64,000 nucleotides of DNA from Variovorax sp. PAMC 28711. Lineage in GTDB: Bacteria > Pseudomonadota > Gammaproteobacteria > Burkholderiales > Burkholderiaceae_C. Below are positions 54,733 through 64,000 of this stretch, one piece after another; the stretch's first letter is position 1; each line of letters starts with the position of its first letter. The notes beneath the pieces were generated by a model, which was not told where the DNA came from, did no database searches, and saw nothing but the letters and a program-made list of their open reading frames with translations. A program made the translations under genes and the position numbers. The DNA is taken from NCBI RefSeq assembly GCF_001577265.1, contig NZ_CP014517.1, positions 3,384,501 through 3,448,500 of the forward strand, read 5' to 3'.

Positions 54733-54736
<4 letters not shown>
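53918..54736 (-). CDS. SGNH-hydrolase-like lipoprotein
   Basis: 272 residues from ATG 54736, overlapping the kinase stop (ATGA). A lipobox ends at Cys 19 (ALALAAC), so the mature protein is lipid-anchored, probably in the outer membrane. The catalytic serine block is YIGNSFFYFNNG (Ser 50, GNS in place of GDS) and the Asp-x2-His block is IADKRHPTLAGSYL (Asp 216, His 219). It is expected to hydrolyse esters or remove acyl groups from polysaccharides. Its translation is coupled to the hybrid sensor kinase, which is uncommon. Confidence 0.82.
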
Positions 54737-56521
<1,785 letters not shown>

Positions 56522-56529
<8 letters not shown>

Positions 56530-57151
56530 TCCGCAGGCCCTCGCGAGAAGCCTGGTAGGCGGCTTCGGTCCGGTTGCGCACGCCCAGTGCCCCGTACACC
56601 GCGGTGAGGTGGGCCTTGACCGTGGATTCTGCGATGTTCAGTTGGCGCGCGATGAGCTTGTTCGGCAGGCCGCGCGCCGCGGCGCGATACACGTCCATCT
56701 GCCGCGCGGTCAGGCCGGCCACGCGCGGGTCGACGGCCGGCGCGACTTCCTCCCAATGAGCCTGCGAGGTTTCCGAAGGCAGGAAAATTCGCCCGGCCAG
56801 CACATGCCGCAACGCCGCGACCATCATTTCCGAGCTGTACATCTTGGGGATGAACCCGGCCGCGCCGAGCTCGACCGACTGGCGGATCAATGCCGCGCTG
56901 GTTTCCCCCGACAGCACCACCACCCGCGCCGTGCAGCCGGTCTCGCGCAGCAGCCGGATCGATTCCGCGCCGTCGGTGGCGTTCAGGTGCCAGTCGAGCA
57001 GCACCAGGTCGAAATCGGTCGCCTGCACCAGCTGCGCGGCGTGGGCGATGTCGCCGGCGGTTTCGACGCGCAGCTCGGGCACCAGCACGCTGAGCAGGTT
57101 TTTTATCCCTTGCAGAAACATCACGTGGTCGTCGACCATCAACACATTCAT
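56522..57151 (-). CDS. NarL/LuxR-type response regulator
   Basis: 209 residues from ATG 57151. Receiver 1-120: MNVLMVDDHVMFLQGI with the acidic pair, Asp in LVLLDWHLNATDGAESI, VVVLSGETSAALI and the Lys in AGFIPKMYSSEMM. LuxR-type helix-turn-helix 145-205: VAGLTARQMDVYRAAARGLPNKLIARQLNIAESTVKAHLTAVYGALGV. It is the first gene of the operon with the hybrid kinase, the SGNH lipoprotein and the GAF protein, and diverges from the acetyltransferase gene. Confidence 0.93.
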
Positions 57152-61785: not shown

Positions 61786-62682
61786 TTGAAACCCGCTCAA
61801 CTCACCGCCTTTGTCGCTGTTGCCGAACAGATGAGCATCCGCGCGGCGGCGCGTGCGCTCGGCATTTCGCAGCCGGCCGTGACCAAGATCGTGCGCGAGC
61901 TGGAGCGCGAGCTCGGCGCGCCTCTCGTCGAACGCAGCGTGCGCGGCGTGTCGCTCACGGCCTACGGCGCCGCGTTCGCGCCGCGGGCCCGCATGCTGCT
62001 GGCCGACATGGGCCGGGCGCGCGACGAGATCGCACAGATCCGCGACGGCGCGACCGGCCGCGTGTCGGTGGCGGTCAGCACGTCGTTCGCGCTCACGGTG
62101 CTGCCGGCCGCCTTCAAGGCCTTTCACACGCGGCTGCCGGCGGTCGAGGTGCGCTTCAGCGAGGCGGTGCTGCCGTCGATGCTCGCGCGCCTGCGCGACG
62201 GCAATCTGGACTTCGCCGTGGCGCATGTGATGCCCGGCATGCTCGACGACGAGTTCGAGCGCACCGAACTTTTCCCGGTCGGCCTCGTGGTCGGCGCGCG
62301 CACCCGGCACCCGCTGCGCAACGCAGTTTCGCTGGCCGAACTCCACGACGCCGAATGGATCCTGCCCGGTGACGGCGACATGGGCCGCGAGGCGGTGGCG
62401 CCGCTGTTTGCGCCGCTCGGTTTTGCACCGCCCGCCCGCGTCATCCAGGGGCAGTCCGTCACCGTGGCGCTCGGACTGGTCGGGCACATGGACCTGATCG
62501 GCCTGTTCGTCGAACCGCTCGCGACGCTGGCCTTCAAGCGCCACGGGATCCGGCGCATCGAGGTGAAGGAACAGTTGCCTGCGCTGCCGGTGTGCGTGAT
62601 CCGGCGGCGCGGCCAGAAGTCGACGCCCGCGGCGCAGCACTTCGTGGAGTGCATTCAGGGTGCGGCAGGATGGCGGGCATGA
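61786..62682 (+). CDS. LysR-family regulator of the MFS/DUF2817 pair
   Basis: 298 residues starting at a TTG (61786), the only reasonable start before the helix-turn-helix: QLTAFVAVAEQMSIRAAARALGISQPAVTKIVRELERELGAPLVERSVRGV. The effector domain has RVSVAVSTSFALTVLPAAFKAF and DLIGLFVEPLATLAF. It diverges from the MFS gene, which it probably activates. Its stop overlaps the start of the next gene (ATGA), so it leads a two-gene unit with a membrane-anchored protein of unknown role. Confidence 0.9.
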   Translation: MKPAQLTAFVAVAEQMSIRAAARALGISQPAVTKIVRELERELGAPLVERSVRGVSLTAYGAAFAPRARMLLADMGRARDEIAQIRDGATGRVSVAVSTSFALTVLPAAFKAFHTRLPAVEVRFSEAVLPSMLARLRDGNLDFAVAHVMPGMLDDEFERTELFPVGLVVGARTRHPLRNAVSLAELHDAEWILPGDGDMGREAVAPLFAPLGFAPPARVIQGQSVTVALGLVGHMDLIGLFVEPLATLAFKRHGIRRIEVKEQLPALPVCVIRRRGQKSTPAAQHFVECIQGAAGWRA

Positions 62683-63317
62683 ACAGGTTGTCGAAGTCGC
62701 TGGCGGCGTTGGCGGTCGTCGCGCTCGTCGTTGCCGGGCTGTGGACTGGCACCACGGTGTTGCGGTCGAAAGAAGAAAAGGTCACCTTGCTCGACCCCGC
62801 GCAAGTCGTCGTGCTGCGCACGCCCGGCGGCTTCCTCGAGGTGGCGACGCTCGTGAAGACCGAAACGTTCGGTTGGCGGTCGTCGTACACCTGCCTCGGG
62901 CAGGATTGCGGCGCGTTTCTGGGCGAACGCGTCGGCGAGATCCGGGTGCCGGTGCACTACACCTACCGCGTGCCGCTCGCCGAATCGTGGATCCTGAAGC
63001 TCGAAGGCGACGCCTACGTGCTTACCGTGCCGGCGCCCGTGCCGCTGCTGCCGCCGGCCATCGACACCGCCAAAGCCGAGATCACCAGCGTCGGCGGTGG
63101 CCTTCTGCCGCCCGGCGCAGCCGGCAACCAGACGAACCTGCTGAAGAACCTCGGCCCCGAACTCACTGCGCGCGCGCAGCGCGTCGAGTACCTGCGCGCC
63201 CAACTGCCAGCCGCCGAAAAAACGGTCGGCGAGTTTGCCGGGAAATGGATGAAGGCGCAGACCCGGGGGCCTTCCAGGCCCGTGCGGGTCAGGTTCGACC
63301 TGGCGCCGGGGAACTGA
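62679..63317 (+). CDS. Membrane-anchored protein of unknown function
   Basis: 212 residues from ATG 62679, overlapping the LysR stop (ATGA). One N-terminal membrane segment (SLAALAVVALVVAGLWTGTTVL) is followed by a soluble region with LLDPAQVVVLRTPGGFLEVATLVKTE, a possible disulfide pair in YTCLGQDCGAF, VPVHYTYRVPLAESW and PVPLLPPAID. I do not recognise the family with certainty; the first motif recalls small DUF4230-like proteins. The C-terminal half is helical and basic (ARAQRVEYLRAQLPAAEKTVGEFAGKW). Confidence 0.7.
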   Translation: MNRLSKSLAALAVVALVVAGLWTGTTVLRSKEEKVTLLDPAQVVVLRTPGGFLEVATLVKTETFGWRSSYTCLGQDCGAFLGERVGEIRVPVHYTYRVPLAESWILKLEGDAYVLTVPAPVPLLPPAIDTAKAEITSVGGGLLPPGAAGNQTNLLKNLGPELTARAQRVEYLRAQLPAAEKTVGEFAGKWMKAQTRGPSRPVRVRFDLAPGN

Positions 63318-63415
63318 TTGCCGCTTTTGCGGCACTCCCGTGATGCGGCGCCGGATGTCGGCCAGCATGTCTGGTCGGTGTCGCGGAAATTCTGCGACGT
63401 CTCCGACAGATGGTC

Positions 63416-63442
63416 TTCAGTTTGCCGTCATGTTGCCGATAT
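63416..63442 (+). promoter_or_regulatory. Sigma28 (FliA) type promoter of the PYP-like gene
   Basis: TTCAGTTT, 11 bases, then GCCGATAT, against the flagellar consensus TAAAGTTT-N11-GCCGATAA: six of eight and seven of eight matches at exactly the right spacing. Predicted start of transcription near 63450, about 85 bases before the ATG. Confidence 0.7.
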
Positions 63443-63535
63443 CAAGGCACATGTTTCACGCACGCGGAGATTGGTTCGCCGGTCAAAGTGACGCACCACC
63501 CGGCCACTCCGTTCTCGTTCCTTGAAAGATTCTCG

Positions 63536-63928
63536 ATGACCATCACAACCCGTGTCGACTTCTCGACAGACAATCTTTTGCAGGGCCTGGAAACGTGCAC
63601 GGATGCGCAACTGGATGAACTCGCATTCGGGGTGATCGGTTTCGGCGCAGACGGCATCGTTCGCCGTTACAACGCTTTTGAATCCAAAGCCGCCGCGCTC
63701 TCGCCGCAAAGGGTGCTCGGGCAGCCTTTGTTCACGTCTGTCGCACCTTGCATGAACAATTTCATGGTCGCCCAGCGCTTCGAAGATGCAGCCGAAGCCA
63801 AGCAGGCGCTCGATGAAAGCATCGACTACGTTCTCACCCTTCGCATGCGACCCGTCAAGGTTCGGTTGCGGCTACTGGCATCGCCCGGTGCCGCGCAGCG
63901 CTATGTGTTGGTGAAGCGTGCGGTCTGA
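63536..63928 (+). CDS. Photoactive yellow protein (PYP) homologue
   Basis: 130 residues from ATG 63536, close to the 125 of Halorhodospira PYP. It aligns along its length with an offset of three. Tyr 45 and Glu 49 (RRYNAFES) match Tyr 42 and Glu 46, which hydrogen-bond the chromophore, and Cys 72 (SVAPCMNN) matches Cys 69, which carries p-coumaric acid as a thioester. Thr 50 is Ala and Arg 52 is Leu here. ELAFGVIGFGADGIV and DYVLTLRMRPVKVRLRLL match the PAS-fold strands. A blue-light receptor is likely if the chromophore is supplied. No chromophore enzyme is in the window. Confidence 0.85.
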   Translation: MTITTRVDFSTDNLLQGLETCTDAQLDELAFGVIGFGADGIVRRYNAFESKAAALSPQRVLGQPLFTSVAPCMNNFMVAQRFEDAAEAKQALDESIDYVLTLRMRPVKVRLRLLASPGAAQRYVLVKRAV

Positions 63929-63940
63929 ACGGTCGATGCC

Positions 63941-64000
63941 ATGGACGATTCCCTCGAGGAAGACTACGAAGCGCTGACACAGTTTTTGTACATCGCGCCC
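63941..64000 (+). CDS. Start of a gene downstream of the PYP homologue, truncated
   Basis: Twenty codons from ATG 63941 to the window end: MDDSLEEDYEALTQFLYIAP. It begins 12 bases after the PYP stop, so the two are probably co-transcribed. The acidic helix leading to FLYIAP looks like the entry to a PAS-type sensor domain, which would fit a signalling partner for the photoreceptor, but too little is present for a firm call. Confidence 0.6.
   Translation, partial: MDDSLEEDYEALTQFLYIAP

Follow-up and report, generated by a model that had tools for sequence, protein, structure and literature searches.

The genome of Variovorax sp. PAMC 28711 is a single contig of 4.3 Mb, of which we analysed the 64,000-nt stretch corresponding to bases 3384501-3448500 (hereafter, the window). 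At the right edge of the window lies pyp, a gene for a homologue of photoactive yellow protein (PYP, of the PAS superfamily; coding part 63536-63925, stop codon 63926-63928), which is preceded by a FliA-type (sigma28) site and followed, 12 nt after its stop codon, by the ATG of another gene (Table 1). These three elements had been pointed out in the initial annotation and our analysis confirms all of them. An alternative start of pyp (ATG at 63410, yielding 172 aa), which would put the promoter inside the gene, was rejected, as relatives of the protein begin at or near the position equivalent to 63536, their start codons being taken as those nearest to that position.

Table 1. Features identified around pyp, with positions in the window.
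Feature	Positions	Strand	Details
Upstream gene	62670..63317	+	215 aa; open reading frame and coding score
-35 element TTCAGTTT	63416..63423	+	6/8 to TAAAGTTT
-10 element GCCGATAT, spacer 11	63435..63442	+	7/8 to GCCGATAA
Predicted leader, 93 nt	63443..63535	+	site and ATG positions
pyp, PYP homologue	63536..63928	+	130 aa; Y45/E49/C72, A53/L55 = PYP positions 50/52; profile, alignment, model
Start of partner gene, PAS-GGDEF diguanylate cyclase	63941..64000	+	452 aa; extends to genome position 3449799 (L009:2442-3800)

Among solved structures, the encoded protein is closest to Ppr-PYP (1mzu, 2.2e-16) and to Halorhodospira-type PYPs. Against the NCBIfam profile photo_yellow (TIGR02373) it scores 81.6 bits (E 4.9e-23) and, because the curated cut-off of 143.05 is not reached, we label it a PYP homologue of Burkholderiales type and not a TIGR02373 equivalog; the same profile matches all 19 scanned relatives (best E 1.5e-24). 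In the alignment, residue 7 of the query corresponds to PYP residue 4, with no gap as far as the chromophore Cys. Tyr42, Glu46 and Cys69 of PYP, which provide chromophore attachment and hydrogen bonds, are all present, as the initial annotation had stated (Y45, E49 and C72), and they are kept in each of the 90 pyp loci compared below. Positions 50 and 52 are occupied by Ala and Leu, which PMC12826048 gives as the PYP family consensus. A PYP fold is also predicted by modelling, as the AlphaFold model (pLDDT 88.3) has PYPs as its most similar PDB structures (TM-score 0.84, about 30% identity). From the chromophore Cys onwards, the stretch CMNNFMVAQRFED (residues 72-84 of the window's protein) is almost invariant in the alignment of relatives, whereas Halorhodospira-type PYPs have a quite different sequence there; this stretch is a candidate partner-binding surface.

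The FliA-type site, TTCAGTTT-N11-GCCGATAT (63416-63442), begins 120 nt upstream of pyp and matches 13 of the 16 positions of TAAAGTTT-N11-GCCGATAA, which we take to be the sigma28/FliA consensus and used for scoring. It is intergenic, since the upstream gene stops 98 nt before it, and it is the only site of at least 13/16 on either strand of the 64-kb window. The match to the consensus at exact spacing described in the initial annotation holds for the 11-nt spacer and for the -10 element, while the -35 element is looser. When the whole genome was scanned with a slightly altered consensus (TCAAGTTT-N11-GCCGATAW), the window site was one of six with at most two mismatches; at up to three mismatches, there were 29 sites versus 18 for the reversed control. 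Taken within its own genome only, the putative promoter is thus weakly founded, a lead rather than a proof.

Upstream regions were compared among 90 distinct pyp loci, namely 80 of the 90 qualifying species-genome loci, the locus of the window and 11 same-genus genes, minus two duplicates; a same-genus match in G097, which is 29% identical and forms part of a 768-aa frame, was left out. Some genomes hold additional copies: two pyp genes each are found in the same-genus genomes G070 and G075, and three loci contain, in the vicinity of pyp, a further stretch that distantly resembles PYP (30-36% identity; L033:10824-11153 on the minus strand, L062:2282-2662 and L095:8970-9332). The one in L062 has a 12/16 FliA-like site located 152 nt ahead of the start called for it.

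Within 250 nt upstream of pyp, a FliA-type site of at least 12/16 is present in 30 of the 90 loci, and one of at least 13/16 in 22 of them. Permuted boxes (298 draws) gave on average 0.35 sites of at least 12/16 (maximum 4) and 0.04 of at least 13/16 (maximum 2), and random stretches of the same loci (100 draws) gave 0.32 (maximum 2) and 0.03 (maximum 1), respectively. The opposite strand of the 90 pyp upstream regions carries no site of at least 12/16, and the other eleven spacings between 6 and 17 yield 0 to 6 such sites, never with a score of 13. Upstream regions of other genes of the same loci reach 12/16 in 3 of 647 cases (the raw count was 4/648, one being a mis-started call of pyp itself, which was left out). 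The difference from 30/90 corresponds to a Fisher p of about 1e-26 if shared ancestry is ignored; as near relatives share ancestry, the pyp loci are not independent events. Finally, a matrix was built from sites upstream of flagellin genes in the same genomes (16 distinct sites; a site was present in 19 of the 30 flagellin loci). With this matrix, 32 of the 90 pyp upstream regions exceed the 99% control level, against 0.9 expected, and 19 exceed the 99.9% level, against 0.1 expected; the latter include the window site with 14.0 bits (level 13.03). This test is not fully independent, as the consensus itself had served to select the flagellin sites. Taken together, permuted boxes, random stretches, opposite strand, spacings, other upstream regions and matrix rule out a chance match for the group of loci, and they support a sigma28-type promoter before pyp that is conserved beyond chance. 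The case for a FliA-type promoter is strong because the site recurs in a third of the pyp loci, while the evidence from the window's own genome is moderate.

The site-positive loci belong to ten named genera (Variovorax, Roseateles, Rubrivivax, Methylibium, Methyloversatilis, Pandoraea, Paraburkholderia, Burkholderia, Cupriavidus and Caballeronia), with predicted leaders of 16-141 nt, spacer sequences and leader lengths being variable. The best sites match at all 16 positions and are found in Pandoraea and Paraburkholderia. The nearest relative of the window's gene by tree (L028, another Variovorax, protein 73% identical) shares 15 of the 16 box positions with it, including TTCAG at the start of the -35 element, while much of the remaining upstream sequence differs; the second pyp copy of the L028 genome (L160) has 10 as its best FliA-type score. 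A general association of PYP with FliA was ruled out, as six further PYPs from 369 genomes of the same class (seven with the one of the window) have no FliA site at promoter distance, one of them having a 12/16 match 292 nt upstream.

The distribution of sites is uneven. They occur in 10 of 12 Burkholderiaceae-labelled loci, 4 of 4 Sterolibacteriaceae (Methyloversatilis), 5 of 9 Sphaerotilaceae and 4 of 12 Variovorax loci, and the 60 loci without a site of at least 12/16 include all 28 Oxalobacteraceae. On a quick PYP tree, the site label needs 12 changes versus 24.6 with shuffled labels (the seven loci scoring 11 being excluded from this count), and well-supported branches force at least three label changes, 41 of the 86 inner branches being unresolved.

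The site-negative loci bring up the possibility that pyp of the window, too, is transcribed from an ordinary sigma70 promoter or some other one, the FliA-like match being fortuitous and the gene belonging to a general light-to-biofilm switch with no flagellar tie. A sigma70 score of at least 9 is indeed reached by 23 of the 60 FliA-negative loci versus 1 of the 30 FliA-positive ones and 50 of 1800 control stretches. Moreover, the best sigma70 pair in 14 of the 28 Oxalobacteraceae consists of TTGACA and a -10-like hexamer spaced 16-18 nt apart; these TTGACA elements account for 14 of the 23 high scorers, all of them Oxalobacteraceae, and are then followed by CAACAT in 8 of the 14. The 13/16 score of the window site would also fit a fortuitous match. 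Against it stand the 30 sites among 90 loci where about 0.3 are expected, found solely at the correct strand and spacing, and the agreement of the flagellin-derived matrix with them, and we regard the sigma70 explanation as unlikely for the window. Promoter exchange, FliA-type versus sigma70-like, is possible for one and the same operon, and the site-positive group and the many Massilia and relatives with sigma70-like promoters offer a natural comparison in this respect. The TTGACA-based loci are from Massilia, Telluria and Pseudoduganella (L030, L031, L032, L034, L036, L059, L080 and others).

The initial annotation implied a FliA-type promoter in a flagellated bacterium, which is borne out both by the spread of the site over the ten genera and by the genome itself. 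The latter carries fliA (C1:2467708-2468379; profile score 275.9 bits, cut-off 189.6) as well as flhDC-like genes, flagellin and, at 2.455-2.497 Mb, a large flagellar cluster (assigned by eye from protein sequence). FliA-like sites precede fliS (score 14 if the second position may be A or C) and flgM (score 12) in this genome. No clear site was found upstream of fliC (best score 11, at spacing 12) and none upstream of motA (best score 9), so that the exact FliA preference of this species is uncertain. Of the 80 pyp genomes, 50 were checked for flagellar genes: 49 have flagellin and 47 have FliA over the cut-off. The sole genome with no flagellin match, that of Glaciimonas immobilis, is also one with no FliA over the cut-off, and its pyp upstream region reaches 9/16 only; the draft genome of L028, which is site-positive, has a partial FliA match (117 bits). 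Among the Oxalobacteraceae checked, 16 of 17 have both flagellin and FliA, yet they have no site, and loss of FliA thus does not explain its absence from this family. With flagellin and FliA in nearly all genomes checked, the presence of FliA was rejected as uninformative about which loci carry a site.

Extending the sequence to the right, as the initial annotation had proposed in order to find a partner and chemotaxis genes, gave a PAS-GGDEF gene and then a PAS-GGDEF-EAL gene. The product of the former matches Pfam GGDEF (1.4e-42) and PAS_9 (2.7e-07) and contains a GGEEF motif. In the window's genome, the latter (L009:3757-5543, C1:3449756-3451542) falls into two separate reading frames containing GGDEF and GGDEF/EAL parts (EAL 2.2e-73), while it forms one open stop-to-stop frame of 612-637 aa in the four other loci inspected; the split may be either a real loss or an assembly error. 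As the three genes are adjacent on the same strand, we predict a pyp - PAS-GGDEF - PAS-GGDEF-EAL operon. The association is widespread: in a tblastn census, 87 of the 90 pyp loci had GGDEF and/or EAL stretches encoded in the same orientation no more than about 3 kb away (69 with both, 15 with GGDEF only, 3 with EAL only), and GGDEF is present in 30 of 30 site-positive loci. Of the three remaining loci, two show a PAS match only, one of which is at a contig end.

The gene following pyp is thus likely to be its signalling partner, as had been suggested, and it encodes a diguanylate cyclase, not a chemotaxis protein. Among the genes of the window's genome that were scanned (the operon and two genes located about 5-7.6 kb downstream of pyp), no MCP or che gene was found. 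With PAS-GGDEF and PAS-GGDEF-EAL partners, the output is therefore likely to be cyclic-di-GMP and not classical phototaxis. Phototaxis proper, with PYP acting on the chemotaxis system, would be in keeping with the fact that chemotaxis genes are compatible with FliA control; in addition, PYP triggers negative phototaxis in Halorhodospira and PYP-MCP fusions occur, according to PMC12826048. The pairing of pyp with GGDEF and/or EAL in nearly all loci and the lack of MCP or che genes among those scanned nevertheless make such a route very improbable. The light-controlled swimming proposed in the initial annotation is accordingly retained in part and redirected by the GGDEF/EAL partners, from phototaxis to a cyclic-di-GMP effect on the choice between swimming and settling or on a motor brake. 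Two pairs of hybrid histidine kinase and LuxR-type regulator genes were also noticed near the operon, one at 54733-57151 of the window (by eye) and the other at L009:7460-9996, on the same strand as pyp and about 5 kb downstream.

Chromophore supply bears on whether the protein senses light at all. In the window's genome, we found no tyrosine ammonia lyase (TAL), no aromatic lyase except hutH of a hut operon (neighbours named by eye) and no PYP-type 4-coumarate-CoA ligase (TIGR02372; best score 93 bits, cut-off 334.7). The best ligase match was rejected as a PYP-type enzyme; it lies in what appears by eye to be an aryl polyene type pigment cluster (L198:5632-14000). As these dedicated genes were not found, the organism would need p-coumarate or ligase activity from elsewhere. 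Among the pyp genomes, only 10 of 49 pass the TIGR02372 cut-off and 16 of 49 have a match of at least 300 bits. FliA might then drive an operon whose PYP has an empty pocket or another ligand, forming a cyclic-di-GMP module with chemical or redox input. The replacement by Leu of both Phe62 and Phe96 of the classical pocket in the alignment would fit such a module, as would the redox sensing proposed for some PYPs in PMC9664959. This explanation has to account, however, for the retention of Tyr42, Glu46 and Cys69 in every locus. Furthermore, according to PMC12826048, only 5% of pyp operons contain TAL and 32% contain the ligase, which makes the lack of these genes nearby usual, and p-coumarate from plants together with a generic CoA ligase may be sufficient. 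We therefore hold a light-insensitive module to be rather improbable, though less so than the two alternatives discussed above.

No photosynthetic reaction-centre protein was found in the window's genome either, in line with the non-phototrophic host assumed in the initial annotation. Reaction-centre proteins are present in 11 of 26 other site-positive genomes (26 of 29 covered), and the FliA wiring of pyp is thus not peculiar to non-phototrophs.

As a third of the pyp loci share this promoter arrangement, light sensing seems to be wired into the swimming programme. The sequence itself shows pyp with its pocket residues, the conservation of the promoter and the operon, and on this basis we consider it fairly probable that FliA makes swimming cells also produce a light-tuned cyclic-di-GMP switch, the pyp - PAS-GGDEF - PAS-GGDEF-EAL operon being part of the FliA regulon. 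Once the hook is completed and FliA is free, cells would produce late flagellar proteins together with a soluble blue-light sensor and cyclic-di-GMP enzymes. Upon illumination, the photocycle of p-coumaroyl-PYP would lead to a signalling state altering the activity of the co-produced GGDEF cyclase and/or EAL phosphodiesterase. The cyclic-di-GMP level, motor braking and the choice between motility and settling would then depend on blue light, and only in cells capable of swimming. FliA dependence, the chromophore, the effect of light on the enzymes and the sign of the swimming effect are presumed in this scheme. The interpretation given in the initial annotation is thereby partly supported, with cyclic-di-GMP in place of phototaxis.

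Several elements of this scheme have known counterparts. Clade C PYPs of Burkholderiales likewise have adjacent GGDEF/EAL genes, for which cyclic-di-GMP control has been proposed (Xing et al. 2022, PMC9664959), and the Variovorax protein fits this clade by taxon and neighbourhood only. Dohmen et al. (2025, PMC12826048) count GGDEF/EAL genes in 29 of their 113 predicted pyp operons. In Idiomarina loihiensis, PYP also lies beside a cyclase and a cyclic-di-GMP output has been proposed, blue light lowering biofilm formation (cited in PMC9664959 and PMC12826048), but this PYP belongs to clade A of Xing et al. On the flagellar side, yhjH of E. coli, which encodes a phosphodiesterase, is expressed under FliA control, and so, partly, is bifA of P. 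putida (PMC5300878, PMC4866697). As proposed for the Variovorax operon, a cyclic-di-GMP gene is thereby included in the flagellar regulon, which keeps the messenger under control in motile cells; unlike in Variovorax, a light sensor is not mentioned in the accessible text of these two reports.

Both PYP-GGDEF/EAL neighbourhoods in Burkholderiales and FliA-controlled cyclic-di-GMP phosphodiesterases have thus been published, and the new part would be the predicted sigma28 wiring of pyp. The main text of PMC9664959 contains neither 'flagell' nor 'sigma', making the sigma28 link an addition from the present analysis. Similarly, the accessible main text of PMC12826048 describes pyp-GGDEF/EAL operons with neither 'promoter' nor 'FliA', motility being addressed through MCP fusions. 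More generally, no report of a sigma28-controlled PYP came up in our searches of open-licence papers, including the accessible portions of PMC12826048, PMC5812497 and PMC4053972. How the signal is passed on from PYP has been described as an important knowledge gap (PMC12826048), and PYPs of Burkholderiales as previously lacking thorough characterisation (PMC9664959). The conserved sigma28 promoter provides a concrete and cheap handle here, as it indicates when the receptor should be made, namely in swimming cells, and, together with the adjacent cyclic-di-GMP genes, predicts which phenotype to measure.

A broader and much more speculative extension, to which we give little credence at present, is that a whole branch of Burkholderiales PYPs evolved to provide the flagellar class-3 regulon with its light input, members with no chromophore genes using plant p-coumarate via a borrowed CoA ligase. 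If so, PYPs of this branch would be made only in cells with a finished flagellum, and the Variovorax receptor would report light and plant phenolics jointly when a swimmer decides for or against settling on a root or leaf.

Other FliA-like sites and cyclic-di-GMP genes were noticed outside the pyp loci. In a same-genus genome, a long gene on the minus strand (L151:13553-15517) has a 13/16 FliA-like site 85 nt upstream, with the TTCAG start also seen before pyp of the window. Inside the flagellar cluster of the window's genome (L144:2636-5993, 2.4826-2.4860 Mb), genes for a Cache-HAMP-PAS-GGDEF protein and a stand-alone EAL protein adjoin a T2SSE/MshEN ATPase gene. Finally, the best FliA-like site of this genome, with one mismatch (G000:C1:4010783-4010809; L146, L216), begins 75 nt before an HDOD ORF that appears by eye to contain a degenerate EAL domain, and which possibly encodes another cyclic-di-GMP protein of the flagellar regulon.
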